In this document: positions 18,475-54,166 of the stretch, in pieces
Numbering within the stretch: the first letter of the stretch is position 1
Layout of the letters: the number at the start of each line of letters is the position of its first letter
NCBI GenBank assembly: GCA_000697665.1
Contig: KL197724.1
Span: forward strand, 573,126-637,125
Source: Jaapia argillacea MUCL 33604
Taxonomy: Eukaryota > Basidiomycota > Agaricomycetes > Jaapiales > Jaapiaceae
Length of the DNA stretch: 64,000 bases
Reading direction: 5' to 3'
Notes under the pieces: model-generated
What the model saw: only the letters and a program-made list of their open reading frames with translations
Databases searched by the model: none
Told to the model about the DNA's origin: nothing
Made by a program: the position numbers and the translations under genes

Positions 18475-19551
18475 ATGGGAAACGCCACTAGCTCGTCAAA
18501 TTACACCTCATCCTTCACCGTCGTCTTTCCTCTGAACTGGTGTATCGTCACCATTGCGAAGGCCGGAGCTAGCTGTGCGATGGTGCCACCGATTTTGCAG
18601 GGACTTAACATCGTCCATCCTGAACAACCCTCGAATCCGTACCTCTCCGACGCCGATTTGCTCGCGCAACTCCCACCGTTTACTGATTTTTCTGCGCAAC
18701 TTGATCTCTGGACGAACTTATCCTTCCAGTCGGACGAACCACTAATTCGGAAGGATGATAAAAAGGGGTTAGATCTCGATCGGAGTAGGGGGAGTAGTGA
18801 TGATGGAGAGAGGTATGGAGATGAAGAGGAGGACGTTAATACACCCGAAGGGACCGCACCCCTCGAGGCTCATGACAACGTGGTTGTCGGAACTCATGTT
18901 CCCAATGCTCCTGTCCCCGCTACTGCCATTCCACCCGTTCCAGCAGGCGGGGTACCTCTCGACTTCCAGGCGTTGATTTCTGGGTTCGGCTTGGATCATC
19001 TCATTCCCGGTGGTGCTCAAAACCCTAGCCCTACCACTCCATCTCTCGCGCAGTTGTTATCGTTGTACGCCGGTCAATCAGCCGCTTTCCCGACCTCAGC
19101 CCCGGCCCCACCCCCTACACCCACCAGTACTCAATTCCAGGAGCCATCACCCCCTGTTCCCAAGCGGGCCCGCACCCGCAAAGTATCCATCACAGCTTCT
19201 GAAGCTGATTACGCATCGGAGTTCCCAGACCTCGACCCCAACACCTCGACGCCCCTCACGGCTGCAGAGGATAAGCGTCGTCGCAATACAGCTGCATCGG
19301 CACGATTTAGATTAAAGAAGAAGGAGCGGGAGCAGGCCTTAGAGAAGAAGTCGAAGGAGTTAGAGGGAAGGGTCAACGAATTGGAACGGGAGTGTGAGGC
19401 ATTGAGGAGGGAGAACGGATGGTTGAAGGGTTTGGTGGTCGGGGTCACGGGGGTCCAGCAGAAACAGCAGTCACCGACCACCACCGCATCAGCAACTACG
19501 ACAACCACGGGGAAGCGGTCAAGAGATGCTGCTGAAGTTTCGGACTCGTAG
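18475..19551 (+). CDS. bZIP transcription factor, MetR/Cys3-like
   Basis: An uninterrupted 358-codon frame. The bZIP region lies near residues 265-325. The basic part RRRNTAASARFRLKKKERE carries the N-x7-R signature and is followed by a leucine zipper (LEGRVNELERECEALRRENG). The ENGWLK ending is typical of the sulfur-regulator group (MetR, Cys-3, Met28). The N-terminal half contains HPEQPSNPYLSDADLLAQLP and LDLWTNLSFQSDEP, blocks I associate with basidiomycete members, then an acidic stretch and Pro/Ala-rich linkers. The first 35 codons up to a second ATG at 18580 are less typical, so translation may start there (MVPPILQGLNI). The C-terminus is Thr-rich. By analogy it would control sulfur-assimilation genes; no target is visible here. 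Confidence 0.82.
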   Translation: MGNATSSSNYTSSFTVVFPLNWCIVTIAKAGASCAMVPPILQGLNIVHPEQPSNPYLSDADLLAQLPPFTDFSAQLDLWTNLSFQSDEPLIRKDDKKGLDLDRSRGSSDDGERYGDEEEDVNTPEGTAPLEAHDNVVVGTHVPNAPVPATAIPPVPAGGVPLDFQALISGFGLDHLIPGGAQNPSPTTPSLAQLLSLYAGQSAAFPTSAPAPPPTPTSTQFQEPSPPVPKRARTRKVSITASEADYASEFPDLDPNTSTPLTAAEDKRRRNTAASARFRLKKKEREQALEKKSKELEGRVNELERECEALRRENGWLKGLVVGVTGVQQKQQSPTTTASATTTTTGKRSRDAAEVSDS

Positions 19552-20070: not shown

Positions 20071-21419
20071 ATGGATAATCTAATCGACCTTGACGACGAT
20101 GTGTTACACAATCCCTTCGCAGATTCATCACCGGGGGAAAGTTCTTCACGGGAACGTCGGCCCATACATGCTCGCCGTCGACACGCATCCCAAGACGATG
20201 TCGCCATCCCCTCGCGGCGAAAATCTCACTCAAGATCACACACTGTCGCCAATAGCGATACTTCCTACCATCCTCTGAGAGGTGCAAATCTAAGACAGCA
20301 CGGAGATACCGCTACTCGCCCGCATCTCATGCGAATGCTGAGTGATGGCGGCCAGACTCCAGACGATAGTTCAAGTGAAGCGAGTACCTCACAAAACGAC
20401 GCCTCACGTGCCAGCAGCTCAGTTGACCTTGAGGGAGACGAGAAGCTTGTTATCGTTCACCCAGTGGGTTGCTTCCCATTCCTCGTCATCAACACATTGT
20501 CTAATGAGTTCGATTCCGCCAGGTTCGCTTGGGAGACTCTCTTGCCGGTGTTGCTTTGAGATACTGCACTAGCATTGCAGCCTTGCGTAGGGCCAACCAT
20601 CTTTGGGCTTCTGACTCCATCCATCTTCGCAAAGAACTCTACATCCCCGTTGATAGGTCACGGCCTAAAGACGCGCCGCTTCTGGTAGAGACGGAGGAGG
20701 ACGCTTCCTCTCAAATCGAGAGAAGGAGCAGTGCTTTCCGTGACTTGACCCTCCGACGAGTCCCCGTCTCCGAGTTGTCATTCTTTCCTCCGTCCACCCA
20801 TTTTTCAGAATCCCAAGCGGATTTCGTCTCGTCATCACAGTCAGGTCAACATCCTGCCTCCACGAAACCCGAACACAAGAAGAAATATGCCACTGTGGGC
20901 CGTTTCGGGTTGGGCTCGACTGCCATTCCAATTACTTCGTTTACCACACCATCCAGTCCAGCCTCCAGATCCCCTCCTCGCTTTTCTCAGAGTCCCTCGC
21001 TCACGTCGCTATTCACTGCGACTCGCGAGACGTTAGACCGCTTCACTCGGCTTTCACTTGAATCCAATGCTACCTCAACCACCACAAGTGGCGAGGGGGA
21101 ACAGGAGCACGAGTTGGAGGAAGTCAATATGTCATCGACAAGGCCTATTTCACCCCACTCCATGGGAACGTCGGCTTCCTTAGACCGCTCTGGTTTCGTT
21201 CTGTCCGAGTTGGGCAAATCCCTCTCTTCTAAGAGACCGCCGTTGCCATACATGGACGAGTTCTTGATGGTGCCACCGAAGTCGGTGGTGCGGACCGCTC
21301 AGCTAGAGCCATCCCCTGTTATGCAAGTGCCAGGCGTCCGCTCTAGCAGTAAAAATCAATTGAGGCATGTTTCCTCGTCGAGATCTGATCTTGGAGCCAT
21401 GGACGACAGTGTGAGATAG
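20071..21419 (+). CDS. Intracellular LysM-domain protein (LYSMD-like)
   Basis: The ATG at 20071 opens MDNLIDLDDDVLHNPFAD. There is no signal peptide, and the N-terminal 130 residues are Ser/Arg-rich and disordered. One intron (about 20475-20525) falls just inside the LysM motif. After splicing it reads IVHPVRLGDSLAGVALRYC and continues SIAALRRANHLWASDSIHLR and KELYIPVD. This is the variant found in eukaryotic LYSMD proteins rather than in secreted chitin-binding effectors. The remainder is Ser/Pro/Thr-rich with the segment FTATRETLDRFTRLSLES, and ends at the TAG at 21417. The role is not established. The lack of a secretion signal argues against a chitin-binding effector. Confidence 0.8.
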
Positions 21420-23285: not shown

Positions 23286-24332
23286 CTAGAATACACTACT
23301 GCGAGATAGAGCTCGGATCGCTTCGTCGTCGATGGGGTCTCGTCTCCGCGTGATGCCTTGGAGGTATTCTAATGGCGCAAGTCGGAGGCTGGGTCCACCG
23401 GGTGGTCGATGAGCAGAGCCAACGTCGGAGAATGGACTTGATCTTGCCGATTCAGAAGGCGGTGTCAGCCGATAGGCGGGATCTGTGTCGGAGGAGCGAC
23501 TCGACGGAGACGACGAAAATGCAAAGAACTGGCCAGGAGGGGCCGGAGCGATTGGATTGAAGCCATTCGTCGCAGACTGTTGAGGACGAGACGCGCCATC
23601 CCTCGATCTGCTGGCTCGAGCGCAGATGTACCGTGCTTCTGGGACGACAAGTCGTCGTAGCATAGGTATGTCATCAACTGTGGCGAGGTCGTCAACTGTC
23701 TCTTGTGTGTAATAAGCATCTGAGATAAGACGGTCAGCTGCATAACAGCGAGTTGGGGAGACGTGGTGCTCACTCAGATGCCACTTTCGCAGACCAGCAG
23801 AGGTGTTGACATACACTGAATATGTCTGCTTGATCATTTTTTGGCTACTGGTTAAAACGAATGAGCAAGAATGGATGATATCAACGACGACTAGAAGCAC
23901 CTTCCGGCCTTACTATTTGCTAAGGTCGAAATTTTGCTGTTGCTGCTCTTTTCATAATAGAACAGGAAATCCTGGAGAGAGGTGACCAACTTGAGAATCG
24001 GCGAGGAAGATGAACTTGAAATTGACTCACATCTCGAGCACGAGAGGGGCCCTGCAAGGACAAGATGTTAATATTTAGTGACAACTGAACCAGTTAAAAC
24101 ATACCCAGGCTCTTCCATCAGTGAAACGTTCGATACCGGGTTCGGTGGTGTCTGGTGGTCCATGCCACCTTTCTTCCCAAACGTACACACAACCTGAGCA
24201 CAACGCCATACGTTCATCGCTGTCTAGGCGGCGAACAACCATCGGCAGAATATTCAAGGCCACGGCATGGAACAAGACGTCCGCGTCGTGAGTGGATCGA
24301 ATGCGGATTCCAGTGCAAGTTGGGCGCTGCAT
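23286..24332 (-). CDS. WOPR-domain (Gti1/Pac2 family) transcription factor, paralogue 1
   Basis: The ATG at 24332 opens MQRPTCTGIRIRSTHDADVL. The first WOPR half continues through ILPMVVRRLDSDERMAL, CVYVWEERW and GIERFTDGRAW, then GPSRARD and DFLFYYEK after two introns. The second half is QKMIKQTYSVYV, RKWHL, a phase-1 intron, then AYYTQETVDDLATVDDIPML. WOPR proteins (Wor1, Ryp1, Sge1, Pac2, Gti1) bind DNA through the two halves and act as developmental master regulators. The tail is Ser/Pro-rich and ends LAPLEYLQ...RRRDPIDDEAI, a motif shared with the two paralogues. The stop is at 23286. The third intron most likely uses a donor at GGAAG/gtgctt, the only one that keeps the frame. The 2.7 kb upstream has no gene. 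Confidence 0.88.
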
Positions 24333-27060
24333 GACGATGATTGGGTCAGGGCGGGGCTGTTTTGATGTATCACCAGAAATTTACCGGTCCATTTTATACT
24401 TGTAGTCCCGTCATGTAACTGCGAAGCCTCATCAAGGTGCTTCTGTTGAATGCCGTTTCCTGTTCTGAAAGAGCTCGTAAGGGTGCTGTGAAGCGTCGCG
24501 GCCAGTATCTTCAACCATAACTGCCTTTCCCAACAAATTTTCCCAGCTGCCAAAGACGCGGTAACACCGATCTGTAAATCGGAAGTCTGTTCTTTAAAAA
24601 GGGAGATCTTGGAATTTTATCTCGTGCCGCCCATCCGCTCAGGTGAATAATTCTATGAATCACATAATGATCTGTGTATTCTATTTCAGTGCCCGTCTAA
24701 ATCCTCCAGTAGTTTCCTCATTCCACTCGAGGTCGGGTTCCGATTCGAAGGACCCATGCCGTATCTCTCGTTGGGACTCTCACAGGCCTTGGTCCCTGCT
24801 GCTTTCCCGTATCGCTGTCTGTTTGTAGACCTAGACTTGAGGGTCATAGCACGGGCAGATGCTACGCCGCAAGTTCGATGGGAGCTTTCAGCTGCCATGG
24901 CGAGTCCTCGTGAACGTAACGATTCGAGACTCACCCCTGCATCCTTCCGACTCCGAAACGACTGAGGCGGTCGTTGTGCCCCCGTTTGCGCATTAGACAT
25001 TGTTCTCATGCAATGAGGTAACGGTTAGGTGGAACAATCGGTGTTCGATGGAGTTGGAACGAGAAGGTGGTATCGCTTGTTGAACCCCTGAACCTTCACA
25101 TGGGATGTCCGTCGCGTCCATCCTTGGAACTCCTCGAGCTCGGGCTGCGCTGGAGGGCAATCATCGGCAGGATCACGAAAATGTCTCTCTTTCAATTCAT
25201 GCTGGCGCTCATTGCCTGAACAAGTTTTATATAGAGGCTTGGCTGATGCCAGTTTCACAGATATTCGGCGACCCGTCGGGATGAGTGCACAAGCTCTCCA
25301 CAGCTCACTTTCTCCGTGGGAGACCGGTATAATTACCCCATGAGGTGTCCGCTTTCCCCTGGATATGCCCGGCAACCTAGAAAGAACAACGAGCGTTTTA
25401 GCTTCCGGGTGATCGCCACCTAAAGCTCCGCGATTCTACAGTCATATTCACCGACAAAGCTTTCGTAGCCAACTATTTCATCTAAATCCAGCGATATTAG
25501 CAGGATGACGGTGAGAGGAACTGCTATTATCCGTTCCTTTCTCACACATTGTGTCCTTTGCCACCCTGATTCAACCCGAACTGTAGCACAGAATCCAAGT
25601 CTAATGTGAATACCGCCATTCTCGAGATCATCAGCACCATACCAGTCCCTATTTGCGAAGACCACGTAGGTGAACATGAACGCAATATCGCTCAGCACTG
25701 AAATATTCCCTGGGATTCTGCAGTACTACTCTGCCACTGTATCCTCCAGCCCTAGCGCTGCTACAAGAAGAGACACCGTTGCTCGCCTCACGTAGCCGTT
25801 TGTGGGCCTGTTGGTTCCTGCCCCATTTCAATAGTGGGGCGGGGATCTCGCCTTTCGGTACATTCTCAAGATTGGTGCGAGCATTATCCCATTTTGTGTC
25901 TGACAATCATGAGAACGACCTTCCTTCCTTAGGTCCTGGGCCCCATCGGGCATCACCCTCAAGTCTACATATTCCGGGATTAAAAGGCGATTTGGGGTGC
26001 TCAGCAATTGTCGCCCTTTTCGAGCCTAGAACGTCCTCCCCGCTCAGTTACGTCCCAGATGACGGGATGAGAGCGGTGACAACGCGCCCAGCATCGAGCA
26101 TCGGTGAGTCCCAGCTGTATGGTCAAACCCTCACGGGAGAATCCTCTTGTCCTCACTCTCACTTGGCCGTCTAGCTCATTGTCATCTGCAGTACAGCACG
26201 ACGAGGTCATTACGTCAAGCATGACCCATCGGCAAGCCCCCTTTTAACACACATCAAAGGCATCTCGTACTTCCGACTCACCAGAAGGTTGTTCAAGTCA
26301 CCGTAATACCTCCGGCCTCGTTGGCCGTGCCTGCATCCTTGACCAATTACTTCTGTTGATTCACCCTCAGGCCGCTCGAAGACGGCCCTCGGTACTTATC
26401 AGTATCACTGGCGGCTGCTTGGTCAAGACCGACGACCCCTCGTTCCTCATCAATATCAGGGTTACGGTATCGTGGAATCGGGCTATCAACTATCCAATGT
26501 ACAATCAAGCAGCGGGGGCAGATCTGTACGACCTCCGTGGGACTTTCATGTTCGTCGGTCGATGCCAGGAACTCCGCGGCTGTCGAAATAAGCGCTTTGC
26601 ATTGAGGTCAGCGTAAAACCTACTCCTCATTGATATTCAGGGCGTTTTCCATACTCAAAATTCGCGGTACCTTCGGGTTGATCCCCTCCACCAGGTTAAG
26701 CTGGTGTGTTTCTTTCCGGAAATTGAAGGCCGTGTTAAGATTCTTATCATGTGCAGACTAGTTTCTGGTCCTCCGTCTCCTTTTTGGCGATGAGCGGGAG
26801 TATATCTCAGGGACCCTGGCTCATCTGAATAGTTGTTTGATTTGAGCGATTTCCAAATGAAACAGGTCACACAAGGCGGTATAAAGGGGGGGTTTTGGGT
26901 TTGGGTAGGGATCCCCGCCCATGAAGGGATGTCGACCAAGTGTATGGTTCACCCCCAGTTCCTCAATGTGTACATTTTAGCCTTCAGATATGAACTATGA
27001 TTGGACGCGGTCCCACATTACAGCGGCGGAAATCATATGAGAGTTAGATGGACAGGGGGA
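24333..27060. other. Gene-poor 5' flank of WOPR paralogue 1
   Basis: About 2.7 kb between the WOPR gene start and the 3' end of the GLTP gene (both on minus). Short ORFs occur on both strands, for example a plus frame at 25779-26174, but none matches a family. It may be a long regulatory region or hold untranslated exons. Confidence 0.5.
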
Positions 27061-27895
27061 CTAGAACCCTTTGCCGTAACCACCTTTCTCGTAAAAGCCT
27101 TCCATTCTCTTCACGATGGAGTGAAGGGCAGCCAACCACTCGTCAAGCTCCGCATTGAGCTTGTCATCTGGCACTGGAGGACCACCGGCAGGGTCGGCGG
27201 CGAGCTTCTTGTAGAAGTCGGCACGGTAAGGACACGCCTTCATGGCCACCTGAGAATGGGAGAGAAATGAGGGCTGTGGCTCGGAGTCGATGCAATAATG
27301 AATACGTACGGCGAAGACTCCTTTGACGACAAAGTTGTGGAATTGCTTGAGCGTGACGCCGTAGGAATTTGTGAACGCCACGGACAACTCTTCGGATTTG
27401 TTCGCCTGGGCATTCTGAAGTGCCTTGCAGGTGAACGATAGACCTCGCAGGAGCCACATGAGGCCTTCCGTAGCCGTTCGCTTTTTCTCCCCCTTCTCGT
27501 TCTCGACAAGTTTCTCCAGAGTTACGGATAAAGTTGGAGCGGCTTCATAGCGTGCTCGCACTTTCTGCGGAGTATTGTGAGGATGACATCCTACAAAGTC
27601 CACATCACACTCACCGCGATATTTCCCTTCAGATCCGATTGTACTACAGAGAACGCGGCCGATCCGAGAAGATCTGAGCAAGAGAGTCGTCAGTAAACTT
27701 GATGAAGGGTGGAATCCTACGAGGACATACCAAACAATTTGACGAGACCCTCTGAGGCCTCGAGAAAGGCAAGTGTGTCGACGCCAGCGTCGGTGACAGG
27801 AACAGTTGCAAACGACTACTGAATACCGTCAAATTGAGACCAGCCAGTAGCGTGACCCAATGACTTGCCCTGACAGACTCAAGAAAAGGTGCCAT
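27061..27895 (-). CDS. Glycolipid transfer protein (GLTP fold)
   Basis: The ATG at 27895 opens MAPFLES, followed after an intron by SFATVPVTDAGVDTLAFLEA and SEGLVKLF. The lipid-recognition block is AAFSVVQSDLKGNIAKVRAR, with the Asp, Asn and Lys that bind the sugar headgroup in human GLTP. The tryptophan platform lies in GLMWLLRGLSF and the conserved histidine in LKQFHNFVVKGVF. The C-terminus is MEGFYEKGGYGKGF. These proteins move glycosphingolipids between membranes without energy input. Length (about 200 residues) is normal and all key residues are present. Four or five short introns. The gene diverges from the fRMsr gene over 171 bp. Confidence 0.92.
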
Positions 27896-28066
27896 TTTTC
27901 GAGCTAGATGGAGATTTTTCAATCGAGTGGTCCTCTGGAATGTCGTTGTCGATAATCAGACCAGGGCGTGGCAGGTTAGAGTAAAATAGGGGTGTACCCA
28001 TTCTTGGATCCATCAGATCTAAGCGAGGATTATCAGTGTTTACCCCAACCTCCATCTCACCACAAC
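27896..28066. promoter_or_regulatory. Short bidirectional promoter region (GLTP / fRMsr)
   Basis: Only 171 bp separate the two divergent ATG codons, so both promoters and 5' UTRs must share this space. No clear TATA box is present. The layout is seen directly; joint regulation is inference. Confidence 0.6.
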
Positions 28067-28856
28067 ATGCCCCACGCCGATTCATCTTTCGTTCCGTCGT
28101 CGATCGTGTCGAAGGCCGACTTTTGGGACCACGTCTACACTCAGCTAGTTGCTTTGTTGGAAGGTCAACGAACCTGGGTAGTCACATCCGTTTTGTCGCA
28201 TGGTGTGATGGAACTGAGCAAATATAGGTCACAAACCTGGCGAACACGTCCTCGACCATATACAACTCCCTCCTGGCTTTCCCGGCCCATTTTGGAGATG
28301 GAGAAAGAGCGGTAAATTGGTGTGGTGCGTTAAGACCCTTTTTTCCTCCTTTTTTGGTCGCACACGCTCCTGAAATTGGTGGGACGGTGTTGCGAAACGC
28401 TGCCGCAATTCTCATGGCGCCCGCTACTATGTTGTTAACGGTCTGCACACATTTCCAGGCTTTTACGTTGACTCGCAGTTTTTCCCCGTCCCCCGTATCG
28501 TGATGCCCGATGATGTCGGCTCCCCATCCAAGTTACTTCTTGGACCATTTTGCGGAAAACCCGCTTGTCAATATATCAATGTCGCACCCAGTACAGCCAG
28601 AGGGGTCTGTGCGGATGCCTTCATCCGGCAAGCTACATTACTCGTTCCCGACGTCGAAGCATATCCTGGACATATTGCGTGCGACGGTCAAACCAAGAGC
28701 GAAATTGTTTCTCCTTTAATCTTAGAGAGGGGAACGGATCGATTGGTCGTGGGAGTCCTTGACTTGGATTGCCTGGCTCTTGGGGGTTTTACGGAGGAAG
28801 ATAAATTGGGGTTGGAGAGGATAGCTGCCTTGGTCGTTAATGCGTGTGACTGGTAG
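28067..28856 (+). CDS. Free methionine-(R)-sulfoxide reductase (GAF domain)
   Basis: The ATG at 28067 opens MPHADSSFVPSSIVSKADFW. After an intron comes NLANTSSTIYNSLLAFPAHF, then AVNWCGFYVD across a second intron. The core reads LLLGPFCGKPACQYI, ARGVCADAF, VPDVEAYPGHIACDG and QTKSEIVSPLI. The end is GVLDLDCLALGGFTEEDKLG and ALVVNACDW. The three cysteines used by the yeast enzyme (in PAC, GVC and IAC) are all present. The enzyme reduces free methionine-R-sulfoxide with thioredoxin, protecting cells from oxidative damage. There is an extra cysteine in PFCGK. Length (about 190 residues) is usual. Confidence 0.93.
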
Positions 28857-28981
28857 AAGTTATCTCCATCCAAATGAAACCCTTCACTCGATTTCCATTC
28901 ATTTGGTATTAAGGTGGGGCGATTTGGGGCTCAAGGCTTGTATCTATCACATCAGGGTCTCGATCTCGAACATCCAGTAAT

Positions 28982-31900
28982 TTAAGAGCTCCCTTGCTCC
29001 CTATGCCACGCCAGGTATTCGTCATGCAATTTCTTTTGAGCAGCCCAGTCTTTCTGCACCTTCTTCCCAGCATTCTTACTCAGCTCCTTTCCCTCCGCGT
29101 CCGTCAGTGGCAAGCCATCATCACTCCAACTTCCATAGGTCCCTTCAGGGACGTTAGGGGGTCTGAACAGGTCTTGAGGGGCGACGCGGCCTCTTTCTAG
29201 CTTCTGCAACTTCCTTTGACGCTCGGCCTCGACGAGTGCCGCCTTCTTTGCGGCTTTGGCCTCCACGAGGGCGCGTTTCTCCTCGCGTGCTCTGATTAGC
29301 TCCGAGGGATGAACAAGTTTGACCAGGGCTTTCCCATCTGGCGCAGTTGGTGAGCGCCGATGAGGTAACAAATGAAAACATCACGACAAACCTTCCTGGT
29401 CATCGAGGGCAACACCCAGCGGTACCAAATCCTCATCGCGGAGCTTGTCAGAAAGGGAAAGGATATCTTTCAACGCAGTATCCCCCTTTGCAATGGCAAG
29501 CCTTCGGACCCCATCTCGGAACGAAGACAAAGTGCGCAAGTATGGCAAGAGAATTTCCTCTCGCTGAAGTGACATAACAAGGACCCTTAAAAGGTGATCA
29601 CCAATGAGATAACGGTGGTAACTCACATTGACGCTTGACTCTCCCTCGCCCTGACCCTGACCCCACCCCACCTCTGACGTTTCCCCTTCTCCCAGCCCAA
29701 ACATGCGAAGCATCTTACCAACCCACCTCGCGACATTCTCGACAACATTCAAGTTCATATTTTTTCCACTTGTGTTCATATAGACGTTGGTACGGGAGAC
29801 AAGATCACGCAAGACGTCAAGAGCACCGGGGGTGTTGAATGAGTCGCAGAGTGCTGCCCGGAAGGCCGTTTGCGAATCATACAACCTTGATGGCGTCGAT
29901 GAATAGAGCGAGGGCCATGGATAAAAGGACTCACAAGTTAGTTAGGTCTCGCTCTTGTTCTCCATATCGATGTTGACCGTCAGACTGGATGCGGTCAGCA
30001 TCTAAGAGCAGTGCCTTCACGACGGCGAAAAAGTTCTAATGTAGATCCATGATTAGTATTAAAATCAGGGACGAGAAGCCAAACAGCTCACGTTGAATGT
30101 GACTTCGATATTTCGAACCTCACCAGTCATCGAAGACTCCGAAAAATCGACTTTGGCGTTCCACGTCTGAGTCAAAAATGCGAGGCGTAGCTGACGCGGG
30201 GTGTACTTTTGCAGGATCTCCTAGATGTCAGCGTGAGTTGTAAGCATACGCAGTCCGTCGTTGTCAAGAATGACTCACGTCGATAGTAATAAAATTCTTC
30301 AAAGATTTACTCATCTTCAGTCCTTCGATGTGCAGATGACCAGTGTGCAAGAAGTAGTTGACCCATGGCGCACAGTTGTGATAAGCCTATCGAACGGTGA
30401 GATCCTGTTGTATGGGTGACATGACGCATCTAACCTCTGACTGGGCCATTTCATTGTCGTGGTGAGGAAAGGCCAGATCAACTCCACCAGAGTGGATGTC
30501 CATATTGTCTCCGAAGATGGCGCTAGCCATAACGGAGCACTCTATGTGCCATCCAGGACGGCCAGGGCCCCATGGCGAAGGCCATTCAGGCTCACCAAGT
30601 TTTGACTTCTTCCACAGGGCAAAGTCAGAGGCAGACCGGCGACCTGACGCATCCGTGAGAGCACCTTCGAAGCGAGAGAAATTCGTTGAGGAGATGGAGT
30701 GAACAACGCCGACAATGACCATTCATACCTTCACCTTCCTCCAGAAGTTTTCGGTTCCCTTTGCTCCAAGGCTCGAGCTTGGCGTAGAAATGCTGATCTG
30801 CAGAGTCGAACGCCTTCGTATCAAAATACACACTCCCATCCACTTCATATCCAAAACCATTCTGTATGATGCGTTCGACGAAGGTGACGATCTCGGGGAC
30901 ATACTCTGTGACACGAGTCAACGTATCAGGATCTCGGACACGAAGTCGAGACATATCTTTGAAGAATTGACCCTCCCAGTAGGCGGCCAAGGATCGAGAA
31001 ATGGATGGGTCAGTTACTGATGCCTTGAACTGGAGACCTTCTGTGAGAACATTGTCAAGGCTTGGCCAGATGTCAATACCGTACCTTTTGATCCAGAGAT
31101 TCTGCCAGGATATCACGAGAGTCGTCTATCAGCCGGAGTGCAGAGTCTTGCCCAGTTTCTCCCGATTGCAAGCGTACTCCAGCTGAGGCAAGGGCAGAAT
31201 GGGAGCGATCCTATCATCAGAGTGCGTGAGGGATGGATTGTTCGAATCATTAGTCATCAGAGGAATGCAGAAGGAAAGGGGACGCCCAGCAGAGGAAACA
31301 CGTACCGCAGTGGTATAATACATCTCGAATTTTTCTTCCCGCCGAAGCGCTTCTAGTTTCCAATCCTTGTCCGCCACCCTAATAACTAAATCTGCCCAAA
31401 ATTCGTCTTCCTTCCCAACAACCGATTTCAGATTTTCAGGTACTCCTTTGCTAACTCTTGACTGAACGAAGTTTGCCCATGCTTCGTGCACTTCGGAGAT
31501 GAGGGCGGGCGTCAGAGATGTCGTTTCAGAGCGAAACTTTTCGAATAGGTGATTTTGTCGTGCCCGGAGGATGATCTATGTGAGATTGTCAGCGCCTGAG
31601 TGACTTTGAATGAAGTCGCGGACGGTACCTTGTCGTCGATATCGGTGATATTCATCACGAAATGAACATCATATCCAAAGTAGTCCGTCATGATCCTTCG
31701 CAAGATATCTTGCGTTACATAGTTTCTGTTCACCGCCAACCAGCCCGCCCATTCAGTCAGTCGATTAACGGGACCAGCGGTGTTTGGGAGCTCTTACCTT
31801 GCATGACCCATGTGAGACGCATCGTATACAGTTGGCCCACAATTGTACCACTTGACAAGTCGACCATTGCGAGGTACAAATTCAGTCTACGAATGAACAT

Positions 31901-32050
31901 GGATTCAAATGATAAGCCAAGAGAACCAGAATAGCAGGAAGGAGAGGGAGCACGACAGACTTTCGTTCGTGTGAGGGAGTTGTAAACTTTGAGCACAGAT
32001 TCCTCCACGGTCCGAGTGGGTGGTGACCACGATGGCTGTTGGTTCGACAT
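28982..32050 (-). CDS. Cysteinyl-tRNA synthetase
   Basis: The ATG at 32050 opens [20 protein letters not shown]. The zinc/ATP site reads [18 protein letters not shown], with HMGH as the class I HIGH motif. It continues [20 protein letters not shown] and [12 protein letters not shown]. The zinc ligand block is [13 protein letters not shown], then [20 protein letters not shown]. The KMSKS loop is [13 protein letters not shown]. The C-terminal anticodon part ends in a charged region ([33 protein letters not shown]) common to eukaryotic cytosolic enzymes. About ten or more introns are spread over 3.1 kb. No mitochondrial leader is evident at this start, although dual targeting cannot be excluded. 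The gene converges on the fRMsr gene with 125 bp between stops. Confidence 0.94.
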
Positions 32051-35000
32051 TCGTCTCACTGAAGGCACTCGAAGCCGCGAAAGACACGATGGTGATTGAT
32101 ATCGATGGACAGAGGTGCCAACCAATCGCAACATCCATGAATACCCTCAGCTGCAGTGACTCAAATGACTCGAGCCTGACGCAATCAACAGTTCAACAAC
32201 GTTATTTAGCGAAAGCAACCCGAGACACAAATCCTTCGGTTCATGCATGCATTCTTCCACGATCTCAACGCGAAGGGAGCTCCGAATCCGTAGGACGTGA
32301 TTTCAATCATCACTCAGGCTTGTATAGCTGATGAATGATTCAGGAAAATGAACGATGATGGTGCATTATCTACTAATTATAACACTTGAGGTCTCCCCAT
32401 CTCTGCGAGGCACGCAAGGGTATGAGATGGTATGTATCAGCGCAGGAAGGACAAGAAACAGAAGCAGAAGAACGTAGGAGAGGCATAATTATTGCATGCC
32501 GTCTGTAATCTCACATCAAGTAGTTTGGTATCGAGACTAAAGTCTCACCAGGAGCATAGCTGCTCTGTCTCTGAGAAAAATATCGTGACTAGCACAGGGA
32601 ACCGTTCTTCGTTGTCTCAGCACTGTCCCTCTCATCGAATCAAAGATATAAGATAGGTGACGACGCCAGACAGAGGGAGCATGAAAGCCAGGCCCCGGAC
32701 ACCCAGATGTCACCAGCATCATAGCAAACCGTCAGGCATCCCACTTGTCGACTGACAGTAGAGCTGTTTTGTTTCATGGGATCGGCAACCTGGATCAAGA
32801 TACTATGTACGAGACCATCGTGGAACAGCACTCGATAAATCAGAAAATTTGGTGGTACTGACATTACTGCAGGATCCACGCCACGTGGAAAGCGTACCCA
32901 CATTCAACCTGGATGTTGTTTTCCTTCAACCTCACTTCAAAGCTTTGTCCTCGGAACCCGGGTCGTCTGAGCTCCATGTTGTTTCTTTTCTCCAAGCATA
33001 GCATGGGCCCACTGCATCACTCTTGAGGCGGGCAACCTGCTGACTCCGTCATTTTCGACCTACAACAAGGCCGCCGAACCCAAACTTCCAAACAGAAAAC
33101 GGTCGCACGGTGTCGATAATATGATGGCCTGTATCAATTCGCGTGTGGGCGAAGGTGACATGTACCATATGCATGCCGACTCTATCTCGGCGGATGCAGG
33201 ATTTCGAACGCATCTGCCGGCGGCCCTCAGGGACCTGACTGTATTCATCACGAGGAAACCCCAGGTGTGTGTGTGAAGGCCGCTAAGTATTACTGATCTG
33301 TGACTGATCCCTTGCATTTCAACCGTGGATTACGTCGGGCTATGAAGTGCTTGCTCTGGGCTTGGCGAATATCTTCCAACATGCCTCTAACTCGCGGGAC
33401 TTTTGCCAAGTACGTTGTGCTCCACCTCGGATTCGATGTGGGGTACCCCTCCTACGCCTCGGGATTTCCTTATTGACCGCACCAATCCACAAATGCGCAG
33501 CCTGTCGACTCTATCTGGGCGTCAATGTCGTTCTCTGGGTCGCATTGTGGGGTCGTTTGACCTTTAATCGATTGTTTCAACAGGTTCCGACAAGCACCAT
33601 GCAGAATCTTCTGGATGATCTATCCTAAACTCGGACAAACGGCAATTGGTCCTTGCTCCTCCTTGCTGGCTTCGTCACAAGCCCCATGATGTGTCAATTG
33701 GACTTCGCTGCTGCGTCTTGTCAACATGGTCTCGAGGCATTTTTGGGTCGCCGAGTTACTTATCCCCGCCACGGGGACCCCCTTGGTTCTGAATTAATAC
33801 TTAGTGATGGTGATACCTTGACCTACCCTGCAAATTCACCAACTCAGGCTAGGCGGTTCGTCGACGTGGGTTATTTTGTGCTGGCTTCTGGTCTCATCAT
33901 AAACCTCATGAGAACACGGTTCGTGATCGTCACTCTGTTCAGTTGTTCGGTTCCTGCTGATACAAGCCTCTCCAATTGTCCTATTATGTATGCACAGATG
34001 GCAAACTACCCCTCATCCCCATTACCAAGCCCCGAAACGATCCCCCTACGGATATGTTCTCTCTTTCATTCCTATGTCCCAGTTTTCCTTCCAAATGCTC
34101 GCGCATATCGTGCCTCATGTCCAGATGTGAGTCATGTGACAGCCCTATCTGCGCATTTCTCCCGTACACGACACGCAATCAGTCGACCTATCAGAACCTT
34201 CTTTGCCATCCATTTCATTTAACTGTTCACGGCGGATGCATCGGAAGGTCGTCACTCTGCTATTTTGAATTTAGGGTGAGGGGTCAGAATCCCGCGTACA
34301 GATGCGAATTTTTGACTTGGTTTCTCCGTTTGCCCACTAATACCCCCCATGTTGGCCCGAGTGGCGGTGGCGTGTCAATTGCATGGAATGGACAACCCAC
34401 CAACGAGCGTGCAATGCCAAAAACCTCCTCGATGATCACCCGTGCAACCCGTGTTTTGATCAGTTTGGGGAAACGTCCTCGCTAGAATCCCGCTCATCAG
34501 ACTTAAACTCCTGCCTGTACTTCTTTTCCTGAGGGTAGGAATCTCACTCGGCACCCCGATTCGAGGGTGCTGTCTAACTGTTATGTCACAATCATACAGT
34601 CTGTTTGCTATTTCATGCCCTCGGGAGCTTTCGTCCTGACTCCTGCTCAACCAGACTCAAGTACGATGAGCGAGACCTCATGATATGCCTGTTTCGCTAG
34701 TAAACTTTCGCCAGGTTGATGGGAACCCCAAAGCAATAATAGTATCATGTCAAATGAGTGCCTTTCGGCTGCCTGTGGACCGCGCGTCGAACTGCCTAAA
34801 ATTCATCTTCAATCAGATAGGCAGCCCGATACGCGTTTCCCGGTGCCTTCAAATTGCCTAGCGTGTGTTCCTGCTCGGGATTACGCTACCCTCCATACAG
34901 CTTCCGGAGCACTGGAGTGCGCCTTGGTTACTTAACAAAACACCGTTGCTCCATCTGACCCTTCACCGCCAAAGGAGGCACAGATTTGATTTCACCCTTC

Positions 35001-35277
35001 CTCTGTAATCATGCCGTGAGCAGAAAAGAGGGGACTCAACCAGCCGTCAAATAAGCTAGCCTCTCTTATTCTAGGTTCATTCTTTGGCCAAGGCGCCTCG
35101 CCAAACTGGAGGTGTGAGGACGTGATCTCCGTTTCTCCTTTTCCTGCTACAACTCTTTTGGGCCATTAGCTTCCATCTCACGGAAACAGTCCCCCATATC
35201 TCGTCTCACTTGGTTGGGAGAATAAAAACCTTCCCCCTCACGAACTTTTTGTTTCTGTCACAGCTACTGACTGACGA
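32051..35277. other. Gene-poor 5' flank of WOPR paralogue 2
   Basis: About 3.2 kb. The longest frame is a 189-codon plus-strand ORF (33653-34222) with no recognisable domain. Another (33347-33628) ends in TSTMQNLLDDLS. They could be chance or eroded exons. The bases just before 35278 form the promoter and leader of the WOPR gene. Confidence 0.45.
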
Positions 35278-36517
35278 ATGGCTCTGCAACGACCAACCTG
35301 CACTGGTGTGCGACTCCGATCCACAAGTGACGCACATGTCATATTTCATGCCGTCTCATTGGGCATCCTTCCAATGGTGACCCGTCGTCTCGATACTGAA
35401 GAGCGACGTAGTATCGTACCCGGTGCGGTATTTGTCTGGGAGGAGCGAAGTCCAAATACGGAGGCGACTGGGGTGAGTGAACTACTGAATACCTAAGTCC
35501 CGCACGGAAGCTAATGGAACTAACGAATATAGCTTGGCATCGAAAGATGGACTGACAGGTGGGCTCAGACTCATTCTACTTTGCTCGCGGGGCTCACCGT
35601 TCTTTTTGCTCTTCCAGCATCAAGTGGGGACCGTCGTCAGTACCATTTTCTCACTTTCTACCGAAAGACGTGACCTGACACTCCCACTTTCCCATCGACA
35701 GTCGAGTTAGAGATGTAAGATAACCGTTTAGGCTCTCATGTCCTGACCATTAACATTCTCTTTTAGGACTTTCTGCTTTACAATGAAAAAGAGGTTGATA
35801 TGAACCTTGAACCCTTTGGCCCAAGTAAAGCGTGAGTCGCAGCGCGTCATTTATGCCTCTCTTGCTAAAAGTCCGGATAGTTTTCGTTCCCCATCTCCTT
35901 CGGGACGAACATGGGGAGATCCTGCCGATCGCCTTGTGAAACAAACATACTCCGTGTTCGTGGAGAGGTCCACTGGACGCAGGAAGTGGCATCTGAGTGA
36001 GTCCCTCTCAGAAATGCCCGGTCACTGATATCTAATGTAGAAACTCCCAGTTGCTTACTTTACTCAAGAATCTCTCGACTATCTCCGCACGATTCGAGAC
36101 ATTCCTCAGCTTGCATCGTTGCGCGTCCCCGAGGGCATGTATAGGAAGGCTCGCCTCGCAAAGGGTCGAAGCCGTGAAGACTACATGTTCGACCGTCAGC
36201 CTTCCCCGATCGCGCCCTACGGTGACCCCCATACCCCCCTACCGGAGATCGTTTCTCCCCCAACTCCTTCCTCCCCATCAGAATCGCCGGTCACGTACTC
36301 CATGCCTCCTATTTCCGCTCTCACACCTCCAGGATGGCATGAACAAATGCCAGCTCGTGTTGTCAACCATACCCCTCGACTGTCTTTTCCATCGCCTAAT
36401 TTGCAAAAGGGCACTACGTTACTAGCTCCCCTCTCATACCTCGAGAATGTCCCCCACACTCGTCGTCACCCTATGGACGAGAAGGCGCTCAGTTCTTTTC
36501 ACGCTCGTCTCGCATAG
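35278..36517 (+). CDS. WOPR-domain (Gti1/Pac2 family) transcription factor, paralogue 2
   Basis: The ATG at 35278 opens MALQRPTCTGVRLRSTSDAH. The first WOPR half runs VIFHAVSLGILPMVTRRLDT, FVWEERSPNTEATG, LGIERWTDS, IKWGPS, RVRD and DFLLYNEKEVD. The pieces are separated by introns, more of them than in paralogue 3. The second half is RLVKQTYSVFVERSTGRRKW, HL, a phase-1 intron, then AYFTQESLDYLRTIRDIPQL. The tail is Ser/Pro-rich and ends LLAPLSYLEN...RRHPMDEKAL before the TAG at 36515. It is a putative DNA-binding developmental regulator. It is the shortest of the three because its tail lacks the long Tyr/Ser-rich region of paralogue 3. The same-strand paralogue 3 is its next recognisable neighbour, 5.7 kb on. 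Confidence 0.88.
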
Positions 36518-39500
36518 TCAGATGTTCTCTAGCTGGGGTCGCCCAAATCGGCCATTGATTTTCCTTGTTGTTGTGGCGGTGGACTTCATTTGGCTCAGGC
36601 TCCTCCGTTACGATACCGGATGTTAATAATAGGAGCCACGCGGACTGTATTTCTTGTATTTCTACTGCTGTATCGATCCCTCGAACAACTGAATAGTGCT
36701 CACGACTTGTATCCTGTGCGCTGATTTTGCCGGCGGCCGTGGTTAGTGAGCGACTCAGACCTGAACTTTTCCAAACGAACAAAGGTGAAGTGTGTCAAGC
36801 CGGCTCATTCTCATAGCCAAAGTTGTTCGTAAAGCTTCTAGAAGGGCAAACCCTGCAGGATTGCCGCCTTTCCTCCGCCACGAGGAGCTTCTCTAGGTTT
36901 TAACATACCCTATTTCAGTGGGACTTCTGGGCAGCCAAAGCGTAATCTTGAACAACTGCTTATGCGTACCCAGTATCCTTCGTTCCATCAGGTCCACTGA
37001 TCAACAAGTAAAAGTTAAAATTTAAGAACCAGCGCGCAACTCGGACATGGAAAAGCTTGATTAGTTGGCACAAGTGTACACACAATCCCCTCCCCCTCAT
37101 AGTGCTTCGAATAGTTGGAGCCTTCGCCTTGTACGCCCCCATGCATAGGTCATCTCCACTGGCCTAGTGGGGGCCGGCTGACCGTTCATCTGGCCATCAC
37201 GCGCGTTTGGTGCGGACGGTGATCGGACGGGCGGTGACCCGATGACACAGAGGGATATGAAGGTGAAGTCACTCCGCCAACTCTTTGCATTGCCGTCGCC
37301 GTTTCGCTTTCTCCAACGGGCAAAGGTGATGAGGCGTGGGCACCAAGGGAATGCCTCAAGATGCCGGCATATTGCCACGGGATCCAGCCACATACGGCGG
37401 TGTCAAGTAAAACGGGAGCTTGACGGAACGGTTTGTGTCGTACATCGGTTGAGGCCAGTGACGGATACTGCAGGAGAAATTTCGGACCGGCCCGATGTCA
37501 GGATCAACGACCTAACATTGTCCCATGTAAGGCCACACATTGCTGATCAGCTCATAACGCTAGCGTCTATCACCACATCCACGAAGCACGATAGGGAGCT
37601 TTAGGGAACAGTTGCTTAGCATTGATCAATGATGGAGACCGTGCGAGGAAACCTCGCCTTGTCAATCGCGAGCTCTCCGGTATAACTTCGAGTGTTTGCG
37701 GACTTCCAGGTGCTCGGGCAGCGCAGTGGGACATCAGCTCCATCGTGGAGGATGTGGCGTGCCCAGATCCTTTGCCTACTTTCTTCGATATGAGGTAAAG
37801 CGAACATGACGCTGAAGGTCACTGCGATCGACGATTTCCGAGGGTTATTTGACCAGTACTTCCTTCGGGAAGGGGGAAAAGAGTGTAGTCGGCCTTGATG
37901 TACCTCGAGAGTAGTATTGCAGAAGGGGCAACCTTGGGTAGATGGGCATGCAACACCTTGCGAGGGGGGGGGATGGAATGTCGAGGTCAAAACAGAAAAT
38001 TGATTCGAGAATGAGTAACGCACCAACCGTGACACAATCATATGACTGCGTTCTTAGCCAAACAACCCTCGAAGATTAGTCTGTTTGCCTAAGAGCAGAG
38101 AGGTAAAGGGAACAGCCGACGGCGAGATTTCTGATTGCCCAGCGTTCAGACGCTTAGGAACTTCTAAACTCTGAGCTGTACCGTTTTGGACAAGTCAACA
38201 CGCGACCCCCCAAGTCAATTTGATCCACCGTGAACAACGCCACTGTCACCCCGCATCGGTGAGAACAGCCAGATCGTCACCCGGGTCCTGTGGTGTTCCA
38301 ATTGACTTATGTGGGGTGCCCTTCGAATTGAACGTGGAGAATGGAATAGCACCCTACCTCTACAGGCCTAAACCGGGAGGATAGAAAGTAGGGATAGGAT
38401 TCCGAGGAACGGAATAGCAAATGGGGATAAGGAGAACCGGGGGAACGTCCACTGAATAGGAAGGCGTTATCAGAAAAGCCGCGAACGACGCATTGCAGGC
38501 TCACCCCCAAACTCCCAGCGGACGAAGATCGTGTGTCAAGAGTTGTAACTCTCGGAGTTTGTTGAACGTAGGAGCGGTCGCGATCGTGTCAAATAGGCGG
38601 CAGCGACTTGTGCCGGATCTACACTGGGGATTGCCTCGGTCAAAACAACAGGGGATTGGTCGATCGAGAAGAGCGATCATACTTTGGTCGCAGAAAGCCC
38701 TCAGACCGCCGACACGTGGACACGGTAGCGGTCGCACAAACATCACCTCCTGGACATCCATACAGAACTTGACCCTGTGCAAATGCAAAATTTGGAATGG
38801 TTCAGGAAAGGACTGGGACGCTAAACTCAAAAATGAGGCATCGGAACGTAAACAGAACGATTACGCTGGAAAGATTGGCAACTCAACATCCACCTTTAAT
38901 CCATTGGCCAATTTGATCGTTGACAGCTGATCACGAACATACACGCGCTGAATGTTGGACGTCACCGATAGGATGCGGGGGACGAGTAAGGCCTGGCTAT
39001 TGAAGGGACGGGGACCACGCAAGAATTTCTCGCCATTTGCAATTGGGGGTGTCCGGGCTAACGAAGATTTCAGGTCGTAAAAACACCCACGGGAATTAGA
39101 AAAAGAGGCCACATACCAGCCGTACAAGTTAAGTTTTGTGAGCTGGCCGTACATTCAGGCCTCCAACGTGCGTATACAGACAAAGTCTGATATTGTCCGG
39201 ATAGCGACCCTGGAGGGTACAAATTCTCCCGAGCCACGGGATACGATAATGTATTTGTGGGCGGAACTGTACAGCGCGAAGCATGCGTTGACCTATTGGT
39301 GGTATAACGCACCTCGACAAATTCATTCAGAGACAACTTGTCCTGAGAAGTTATTCTCGGATCCTGTGTGCTCTGAAGGCAATCCCATACCCGTTCTTCG
39401 ACGGGGGCGTCCGAATCAGGGTCTATGTCCCTGGCAGGGTACAAAGACATGTTGGCATGCCGTCAGGTCGCTGGTAGGTGGGGCGTGAAAATGTTTGTTA

Positions 39501-41085
39501 CTCATGTGTCTTTGCGTTGAAGTTTACTCGCGAGCTGAAGAGGAGCCGCAAGCATTATGCGCTGACAACCGAATTGTTTCGCCCTTCGGAACACCCTTTC
39601 CTATGTCGAAATCTAGGACAAGGAGAAAAGGTACTGATTAACCGAACCTGCCACGATTTCCTTTTGCTGGTAAGGGAAGAAGAAGATATTCACCTCACTA
39701 GGTACTAGCACTTGGGAACCATCAATAATTGGTGGCTTTCACAATGGAACATACCCTACCCTGACTCAGTGACTGAAGGGGTGAACAAGACCTTAATCCA
39801 TTGCGCTGGTACCGTGGGAAACGTGATTGCCTTGTTTCAGCGAATCCGAAGAAACCTACTGGACAACTCCCGCGGCCCACAGCCACGAAATAGTAGACAC
39901 CCCATCGTAGATCAATTGTAGATGAATGTGACGGCTAGGAAATCCTTGACCATCAGGTTTGAAACTGAATATGAGCAAGAATAATATGTAAGTCGGGCAG
40001 AGATTGCAAAATCGGGCGAAATTTTCCGTACAAGATAACTATCGTTTCGACGCGATCTGTACTGGGATTCAGGGATTACTCACATGCTCATCCGTGCTCA
40101 TCTGATGCAGTACATATCATTCGGAGAAGTCGGCGGATTTCACTGCTATGTTTCCTTCGGTGCCTGTGCTACTGAATGAACTGTACCGGGTGCAGTGGCT
40201 TCACCACGCCGCTGGAAGGGACGGAAGCGGGAATCGCAAAAAGAGTGGAGAAATCGCTGGAAATGACCTGGTGCGAGTGGAGTTATCATGAGTTTGTCGA
40301 TGGGTTCCCGTCAGCTGTGGGCGCCAACAATCTGAGCTGGCAGGGGACATCAAGGGCCCCAATCGCCAAGTCCTGGGACTGTCGTTTAGACGTCGGCGCA
40401 GCAGGCGGCCGCCTGAAGAAGACCCACCACGAGAGGAGAACCCTGCCCAAGAAAGGTCAGATTTGACCCATGATCGACACATTTTGGTCCACTGAAAGAG
40501 ACTCCACAACGCTTCGAGGAAATGGGTCCGGCCGATTGATGATTTTGATCTTAGCTTTGGATTGCCAATGTGACTTGCTTTCACAGCGACGTATGACGAC
40601 GACGCCTGGAACCAAAGCGATTTTGCTTCCGCGTAAACCAAAATCAGATGCAAGTTAGCAATCGACATCACAAACTGTCAATAGATATTTACCTTTTGAG
40701 GTTAACCAAGCTGACTTTGCTGATCGACCACCCTCCTGGCCCGAATATGGTATGTGCGTCCGAACACGGCTCCAAATACGTACTTCTTCGTACCTTCCAT
40801 CCAAAGGTTGCATAGCAGCAAGTTCAATTTGCGGTGTTAACTGGGAGGTGAAATCGATATGCCGTAGTCACACGGGATTTGAGGTGTAGTATGATAGAGG
40901 ATGGTGGGCTTGGAGGCTGGGCGGGTGATCCGGATAGAACAACCTTGCCCGACAGATATTGAATACCACGACGCTAGACCCCCACACTTAGCACGCCGAG
41001 CCAGGTTGGATGGCAAAAGAAATATGTCAAACATCGAGACGATCTGATGGCGTCGAAGGTGGCTGAATCTCAGATAGCCGAGGTG

Positions 41086-41118
41086 TTGGAAAGAGATTGG
41101 AAAAGAGTTGGAAAAGAG
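41086..41118 (+). repeat. Tandem 11-bp repeat, three units
   Basis: The unit TTGGAAAAGAG occurs twice exactly, preceded by a variant TTGGAAAGAGA, in direct contiguous array. Confidence 0.7.
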
Positions 41119-42107
41119 TGGGGAGAGGAAAGGATCCGAACACGTTGCTGAGGAGAAAGGGCATCCCGTCCCGCAGAGCGGTAAAGTTGAAGTGGAGACA
41201 CATGTTGGACAAGGTTCAGATGTGATGTTGGAAAGAAGACCTCGTTGCAATGGAGATGAACGAGAGATGAACGGCTGCTTCCGACGTGAATGAATATGAA
41301 GTTTGTATGCCTCCAAGAGCGAAACGTCCCGGTCAATTCAGCAATCCCGACGCTTTATGCCACAATTATGTAAGGAGCCCGGACGCGTGAGCCGGATGAG
41401 CCAACACGTCGCACCAATAGTGCGTTTGATCGTCCCTTGGCTAAGCTAGATGACATGACCGGTCGTTTGCCCGTGGCCCAGTTGCGACTATGCCTGAGCT
41501 GATGAAGAAGATTGACGGGAGGATTTTGGGCACAGCAACGAGGTTTCGAGCCCTCCCGCGAACATTATGTTGGAGGAAGCTGCACAATCATGCGAGGGCA
41601 ACAGATTGCAATCGTCCGGCCCAGCACTCCGGTCGATTTCGGGCTTTCCCGTTCGACCAATGTCGGACTTTGAAAAATGCTCCGCCGTCCAGCGGCATCC
41701 GCGGGAAGCGCGGACAGACTAATCAGGGAAACTGGTTACGACCTCCAAGTATAACTTTGGCGCACTATCTTTCGCCACAAAAACGAGGCTGTTCTTACGA
41801 GCGCCATTCGAATGAGTGGGGGGAACACGTCTCCCAATGAAGTGGCCAGATGTATTTTGGACGGTAGGTTCGGGCTCCCCCGCGCAGGACCCTTGGTCGA
41901 GTCTGGGCGCGATCAGAAGCTTTAAAGTTGTAAGGTGATAACGTTTTTGCTGACCGCTTATCGAGATTGGCTTCTTACCACAAAGTCGGATTTTCAATGA
42001 CCCAATCTGGCTTCTGATGTTTATTTTATGGCAATGACCCCTAATGATCCCCTTATCGAGAAAAGGCTAATGAAATCCAAAACCGACTGGCAACATTCTC
42101 GCTTGAC

Positions 42108-42174
42108 TATATATTACGTGCTCCGTCAGCAAAACCTTTACTCTGGACTTCTTCTCGTCCCTGCCCTATATATT
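42108..42174 (+). promoter_or_regulatory. Two TATA-like elements before WOPR paralogue 3
   Basis: TATATATT occurs at 42108-42115 and again at 42167-42174, about 140 and 81 bp before the ATG at 42248. A pyrimidine-rich stretch follows. The position suits a core promoter, but no start site is known. Confidence 0.45.
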
Positions 42175-42247
42175 CATCATCTTTTGTCTTCAGATTCTTT
42201 CCTTCCCGGCTCCCTTGCTCTTCCACTCCCCCTCTCAACACCCGGCC

Positions 42248-43898
42248 ATGCAGAAACCCACCCTCACCAACATCCGCATTCGGTCGACACACGACGCCCA
42301 TGTCATTTTCTACGCTGCTGTTACTGGCATCCTCCCACTCATCATTAGGCGTCTCGACTCGGACGAGCGCCAGGCTCTACGATCCGGTTGCGCCTATGCG
42401 TGGGAAGAAAGAGCTCCTCAAACCGATGTGAGTGGATTGGGGATTGAACGGTTCACCGAAGGAAGGAAATGGAGTGCCTCCAGGGTCCGAGATGTGAGTT
42501 TTATCCACCATCCACTTTTGTTTCATACACGATCCCCTTTCTGCCACCGTCAGGTTCACGAGTCGTTGGCTAATCTTCTTTCTATCTAGGAATTTCTCTT
42601 CTACTACGAGCGTTGGGACCAGCCGGCGGATAATAGAGACGGGTGCGTTATACATTTGAAATATCCCACTTGACACCGTATTGACTACAACCTGGATTCG
42701 TTACGGCAGTCGCTCTGCTCCAGAGCCACCACGGGATTGGGATGCCATGGTCAAGCAGAGCTACTCCGCTTTCATCAACTACGCTCCCAAGGGAATCCGT
42801 AAGATGCATCTCAGTACGTCTTGTTGGATTTCTAGGCCCCTCGCTTTCAGGCGAATTGAAATGTTTCATGTTTTTCCCAAATTTATAGCCGCTTATTTCA
42901 CCCAGAGAACCATCGATGATTTGTGTACTATCGACGATATCCCTGAAATCCGTGATTTACAAGTCCCGGAAGGTTTCATCCAGCACAATATCCGCACCAC
43001 GAAGAACAACCGAGGTAAAAATGCGGCGGCGGCGGTGGAATCCACTTCGTCCACTGGACGGCACTCGGATACACATGCCCGACAGGGATCTTCCCGTCAA
43101 TATGCCCCTTATCCTGCACCCAATGTGGCCCCGTCTCAATTCGAGAATCAGCACCCTTCACGGCACGAGAACCCTCTACCACCGTTGCAGACGATCAATT
43201 ACTCGTCCGGTAGTGGTGTACCTTCTTCGAGTCATTATTCGTCGCCCCCTATGTCTGCTCACTCCCCTTACTCCCATTCCCATTCGGCGCCCCCCTATTC
43301 ACCTCGTCATGGACATTCGCATGACCGAAGCTACAGTTCGCATCAGTCTTCACAATATACCCTTCCTCCGCCATCGACGATGCCATCGCCATATCCCGCC
43401 GCTCGCCCTGCTTACCCCTCAGGTACGGGTTCTTACTCGTATTCTAATCCATCGTCGACGTATGGGTACTATACATCCACGTCCTCCGGACCTGCCTACA
43501 CATATGGTTCTGGTTCGTCCACTTTATCGGACTCTCCACCTCAATCGCATGCTCGATCGCCGTCGATCTCGCCGATTTCAGCTTCCCCTCTCGCTCCCTC
43601 TGAACACTCGCAGTCGCACTCTCCGTCGTCCTTCCCCTCTTCCCCCAGTACCCAACCTCCTCGTTCAAATTCCAGTTCGTACGGCTTCCCGTCATTTCCG
43701 TCGGAAGATGGTAGAGTGCGGACGTCCCCTCGGAACTCGGATCGCGTCATACGCCCTCCATCACAAGGTGGAATGATGGACGTGGAGTCTCCGAGATGTA
43801 TGCTGGTACCTCTCGATTCGCTAAGGAGGGACCATCCATATCGGAGGGATCCCATCGACGACAGTGCCTTGCGATTGCTCAACCAAAAACCTGCCTAG
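42248..43898 (+). CDS. WOPR-domain (Gti1/Pac2 family) transcription factor, paralogue 3, with long Tyr/Ser/Pro-rich tail
   Basis: The ATG at 42248 opens MQKPTLTNIRIRSTHDAHVI. The first WOPR half continues ILPLIIRRLDSDERQALRSG, YAWEERAPQTD and GIERFTEGRKWSASRVRD without the introns seen here in paralogues 1 and 2. EFLFYYERWDQPADNRDG follows after an intron. The second half is MVKQSYSAFINYAPKGIRKM, HL, a phase-1 intron, then AYFTQRTIDDLCTIDDIPEI. From about 43000 a long tail is dominated by Ser, Tyr, Pro and His (GSYSYSNPSSTYGYYTSTSS). It ends with the shared motif LVPLDSLRRD...RRDPIDDSAL and the TAG at 43896. It is inferred to be a nuclear developmental regulator; the low-complexity tail is the likely activation or condensate region. 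Confidence 0.9.
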
Positions 43899-53797: not shown

Positions 53798-54166
53798 TTT
53801 ATTTCTATTGGATCTCTCTCATATGCACATGGTTGAAGGACATGGCTTGCGACGCCATTTGTCGAGCGATATGCTACCCAGCCTTTTGCCGTCAGTGTCT
53901 ATTAGCAGCCTCAAGGGTTCTCACCAACTTTATTTGGACTCGCATCAGATGACCACTAAATTTGCCGGTCCACGCTGAACTTCAATGATCTTTCTTGCCA
54001 AGGCACTCCACTTATCGGATGCCGGTCATGCCACCATGTTCGGTCGAGATAAAGACCGATTATTATAAGCGCTGAATATTTGAAGAACATCGCTCCCATG
54101 CTTATCTTGGTGTTTCCTGAACTCGCAGACTGAACTGACGACAATCCAACTTGACTTGCATCCTCG
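53798..54166. other. Spacer between the CLC and amidase genes
   Basis: About 370 bp between tandem plus-strand genes. It must hold the CLC 3' UTR and the amidase promoter. No gene was seen. Confidence 0.5.

Follow-up and report, generated by a model that had tools for sequence, protein, structure and literature searches.

Three intact WOPR genes within 20.6 kb of a fungal genome: a probable old tandem expansion of a known transcription-factor family

In other fungi, switches of cell state are controlled by WOPR proteins. TTAAAGTTT has been reported as the core motif of Wor1, Ryp1 and Mit1 (PMC4567300). Two family members each are given for U. maydis (PMC4917244), A. nidulans (PMC4567300) and C. 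neoformans (PMC6243373). More than two were stated for Coprinus cinereus and Rhizopus oryzae in 2009, with the data not shown (PMC2762075), and 23 Gti1_Pac2 sequences are given for Cryptoporus qinlingensis (PMC11856377). Here, three WOPR genes, called A, B and C, are described, which lie within a 64,000-nucleotide stretch of DNA (the window; G000:C16:573126-637125). The assembly comprises 43.7 Mb and 95 contigs. A family search located six WOPR loci in this genome, namely A, B and C in the window and the genes D, E and F on contigs C6, C8 and C10, respectively. A seventh locus was not found by a search with the box of C or with a blend of WOPRb sequences, both at E ≤ 10, and such locus counts are lower bounds. 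Judged by the member counts published for other fungi, six represents a moderate expansion. In having more than two members, the genome resembles those of the mushroom-forming fungi Coprinus cinereus and Cryptoporus qinlingensis, a likeness in count.

The three genes are best explained as an old tandem expansion of this known fungal transcription-factor family, consisting of intact WOPR genes, a reading to which we assign a probability of roughly 72%. Gene models of A, B and C were built manually on the basis of the sequence, and their introns were checked by script (Table 1). The spliced models contain GT-AG introns and encode complete proteins from start to stop. Their starts and stops coincide exactly with the positions in an earlier note on this DNA, which had placed three WOPR genes here on both strands. 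Gti1_Pac2 (PF09729) is the sole Pfam family matched by the three at E ≤ 0.01, with scores of 82.8 bits for A and 98.6 bits for B (whole proteins) and 72.3 bits for C (164-residue box) at a Pfam cut-off of 23.6 bits; the boxes of D and E score 92.5 and 162 bits, respectively, and F reached 172.4 bits in the family search. The best-scoring stretch in A, B and C is the N-terminal WOPRa half, which lies above this cut-off. WOPRb follows after a linker; its alignment among A-D shows 16 invariant columns, and it can also be aligned with E, F and YHR177W. The sequence motifs which the earlier note had quoted for all three genes are distributed unevenly: RSTHDA and RRLDSDER are present in A and C and replaced in B by RSTSDA and RRLDTEER, IKQTYSVYV occurs only in A, and AYFTQ is found in B and C, with AYYTQ in A.

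Table 1. Coordinates of the WOPR genes, neighbouring open reading frames (ORFs) and spacers in the window (aa, amino acids).
Feature	Position	Strand	Details
bZIP transcription-factor ORF, left of A	18463-19545		PF07716, 37.6 bits
LysM-domain ORF, near bZIP ORF, left of A	20508-21413		
WOPR gene A	23286..24332	-	275 aa; five exons 24332-24105, 24051-24031, 23971-23901, 23847-23774, 23719-23286
Spacer upstream of A	24333..27060		2.7 kb
Glycolipid transfer protein ORF, between A and B	27064..27828	-	PF08718, 101.9 bits
GAF-like ORF, between A and B	28374..28853	+	PF13185, 17.5 bits, below cut-off of 28.6; E 0.0049
Cysteinyl-tRNA synthetase exons, between A and B	29384..31793	-	PF09190 29384-29941, PF01406 30390-30722; outer limits approximate (ORFs by eye)
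Spacer upstream of B	32200..35277		about 3 kb; left limit by eye; open-frame content like shuffles
WOPR gene B	35278..36517	+	302 aa; seven exons 35278-35472, 35533-35558, 35618-35635, 35702-35714, 35767-35831, 35872-35996, 36051-36517
Spacer upstream of C	36518..42247		5.7 kb; no sign of coding
WOPR gene C	42248..43898	+	470 aa; four exons 42248-42493, 42590-42642, 42710-42813, 42889-43898

B is the least certain gene model, since it has inside WOPRa three tiny exons of 26, 18 and 13 nucleotides (35533-35714) and the linker intron has 40 nucleotides and a weak acceptor. Short exons in the same region, at other positions, are also seen in A (21 nucleotides) and D (40 nucleotides). In gene E, an apparent GC-AG intron (donor GCGAGT; L002 1928-1979) is located where F has a GT-AG intron.

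The relationship among the genes was analyzed with trees of A-F, YHR177W and Wor1 using IQ-TREE (LG+G4, fixed model) and FastTree. A-D are split from E, F, YHR177W and Wor1 with support of 100/100 (IQ-TREE) and 1.000 (FastTree), and within this clade A and C group together (87.5/86 and 0.95, respectively). A, B and C thus belong to one clade with respect to the references compared, and not to the three separate, ancient WOPR clades which the earlier note had named as the result that would speak against its proposal. Over the WOPRa and WOPRb columns, the box identity is 63% for A-B, 63% for A-C and 55% for B-C, and 49-53% between D and these three. E and F share 59% with each other and 34-43% with A-D.

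The gene structures follow the same division, as A, B, C and D share three intron positions that E and F lack. One is in phase 0 and follows RD or RE of the SRVRD segment, one is in phase 2 in the linker, and one is in phase 1 inside HL-AY. Beyond these, C has no intron, A one, B three and D one. Furthermore, A-D have in common a conserved C-terminal tail and, as a difference from the Gti1/Pac2 family, an insertion of 7-8 residues ahead of the IERFTD segment. At the KRWT site, which is retained in E and F, lysine is changed to glutamate in all four, giving ERFTDG in A, ERWTDS in B, ERFTEG in C and ERWTDG in D. Local duplication is likely because of the A-D clade together with the shared introns, the insertion, the lysine-to-glutamate change and the tail. 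The conserved tail is noteworthy, since the C-terminal part of the family is described as being without conservation in one study (PMC6243373); conservation of this part within Aspergillus is reported in another (PMC4567300). Also the positions of the genes are non-random. When the genes were placed at random 4,000,000 times, 47 trials brought three of the six into a span of 20.6 kb, a width taken from the finding itself, and it is unlikely that the clustering of A, B and C arose by chance.

Several points weigh against the best explanation. The branching order of B and D is weakly supported (48.7/61 in IQ-TREE and 0.37 in FastTree), therefore the tandem origin of exactly A, B and C is not proved. 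A long branch, about 1 substitution per site, leads to the A-D clade and makes the placement of this clade in the family uncertain, and the genes of other fungi in the comparison are represented only by parts of Wor1 and YHR177W. In addition, WOPRb of A-D lies beyond the end of their Pfam match, and the similarity of C to the solved WOPR structures is weak (E 2.5e-4 and 0.0067), so that binding of the same site by A-D is not assured. The first of these points also raises the odds that A, B and C are three separate WOPR lineages, which became adjacent by chance or rearrangement without local duplication, and the box identity of merely 55-63% would fit this as well. Nevertheless, such an origin is improbable in view of the single clade, the shared introns and tail, and a chance of about 1e-5 for the clustering.

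The age of the tandem expansion is indicated by the divergence at synonymous sites (pS), which amounts to 0.83-0.89 among A, B and C and is saturated, while the nonsynonymous value (pN) is 0.25-0.30 (139 codons). It follows that the duplications are old and that the proteins evolve under purifying selection. Local duplication, as proposed by the earlier note, is likely and the simplest reading of the single clade, but the recent origin it had suggested was rejected in view of the saturated synonymous sites. The low pN, the complete frames and the conserved box residues in A, B and C also make it highly improbable that one or more of the genes are decaying copies, that is pseudogenes, an idea for which the very small exons, the 40-nucleotide intron and the weak acceptor of B could be quoted.

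A segmental duplication with D was rejected as well, since the 515 ORFs of the window (≥ 60 aa) matched only WOPR when compared with C6:500001-590000. The same ORFs found nothing but WOPR exons in C8:832001-850000 and C10:876001-894000, the surroundings of E and F. A second copy of the three spacer stretches (36800-42200, 32200-35250 and 24350-27050) was not found at E ≤ 1e-10 by a search that skips common words and which an abundant repeat could escape. Both the absence of such a copy and the saturated synonymous divergence, as a sign of old duplications, would suit an old cluster kept across many related fungi by conserved synteny, perhaps with shared regulation. Here, the spacer of 5.7 kb before C is reminiscent of the long promoters described for WOPR core regulators (PMC4917244). 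On the contrary, A, B and C are interrupted by other genes and lie on both strands. This possibility, at somewhat less than even odds, is compatible with an old tandem expansion and differs from it only in breadth.

In the old tandem expansion, A, B and C would have arisen by duplication from one ancestor with three introns, from which D, located elsewhere, would also descend. Like the Gti1/Pac2 family, A-D have an N-terminal two-part box (WOPRa and WOPRb) with a variable linker. By analogy with the family, both parts would be expected to fold into one DNA-binding domain reading a site similar to TTAAAGTTT, and the conserved tail may serve as a docking surface, so that sets of genes are turned on or off. 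The WOPRa core R[WF]T[DE][GS] and W..SR are shared with Wor1 (PDB 4qtj), YHR177W (PDB 4m8b) and the Sge1/Ryp1/Gti1 group. In contrast, the box identity of A-D to the parts of Wor1 and YHR177W that were compared is 29-38%, and A-D do not group with Wor1 in the tree, in which part of Wor1 is included and the branch of A-D is long. E and F belong to the same family as A-D.

Differences are also seen in the signals described for the Sge1/Wor1/Gti1 group. The sequence KRWTDS/G has been put forward as a putative protein kinase A (PKA) site of this group (PMC2762075) and is not present in A, B, C and D, which carry ERFT or ERWT instead of KRWT. Together with the insertion just before it, this change may result in a regulation unlike that of Wor1 and Sge1, perhaps without direct control by PKA. 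The change also makes it possible to test directly if the putative PKA site is important in all WOPR proteins. PGEKKRA, a nuclear localization motif of several members of this group, is absent in all six proteins; this is a weak criterion, because Ros1 also lacks it (PMC4917244). As a further difference from this group, none of the six has a glutamine run longer than two. No relatives in viral or prokaryotic contigs were confirmed using the box of C as the single query, which would be expected of a gene from a fungus.

The spacer upstream of C also bears on whether the locus regulates itself. Allowing one mismatch at most, it contains five matches to TTAAAGTTT versus 1.14 expected, and 3 of 200 shuffles reach five. 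Ros1 has a long promoter that is bound by Ros1 itself (PMC4917244), and in the same manner WOPR proteins might bind the spacer of C within a cross-regulating switch locus. Several observations make this unlikely: the five matches represent three places, two of them being overlapping pairs, none was found upstream of A or B at the same stringency, and the whole window contains 8 matches versus 11 expected. Furthermore, three regions were tested, which makes the 3 of 200 shuffles weak. The more far-reaching proposal, that A-D form a third WOPR class apart from the Gti1 and Pac2 groups, which is no longer controlled by PKA and has a common docking tail at the C-terminus, and that A-B-C are a cross-regulating locus for switching the cell state in mushroom-forming fungi, appears quite unlikely.

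The regulation of family members has been described in other species. In Flammulina primordia, a Gti1/Pac2 gene takes fourth place in the ranking of induced genes, and developmental regulation of the family is stated for six other Agaricomycetes (PMC7567395). In mycorrhiza, a member from Laccaria belongs to the most strongly regulated genes (PMC8708209). If the fungus is a mushroom-former, the likeliest role would be a stage-specific control acting between mycelium and fruiting by diverged, not redundant, copies. As a hypothesis, A-B-C could form a dedicated developmental control locus, and as a clustered, diverged set the genes offer defined targets for deletion. The earlier suggestion of an undescribed system does not hold on present evidence, since the family is known and more than two members were already reported for Coprinus in 2009 (PMC2762075). 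No paper on a WOPR gene cluster was found among the titles and abstract openings listed for WOPR and Gti1 in basidiomycetes and mushroom-forming fungi (in one case 20 of 3,666), an incomplete literature coverage that included no search aimed at clusters or tandem arrays.

The trio is interleaved with other genes, as the earlier note had stated, among them those of the glycolipid transfer protein and the cysteinyl-tRNA synthetase. The spacer before C fully contains 17 ORFs (≥ 80 aa), of which 10 were scanned and matched no Pfam family at E ≤ 0.1, and the open frame in 36700-42247 is not in excess, 31 of 100 shuffles reaching it. In the spacer upstream of A, 3 of the 13 ORFs (≥ 80 aa) were scanned and matched no Pfam family. 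Here the open frame exceeds all 100 shuffles, which makes an unrecognized gene possible. Within the window, neither a tRNA (ARAGORN, bacterial code) nor an Rfam match at gathering score was detected. A home-made codon model was set aside, since it preferred frames of low complexity and gave no entry for the tRNA-synthetase region. One window ORF (63480-63689) has a match in the 30-kb stretches that flank the window. To the right of the trio, the ORFs 51686-52450 and 54155-56067 may encode proteins resembling a chloride channel and an amidase, respectively.

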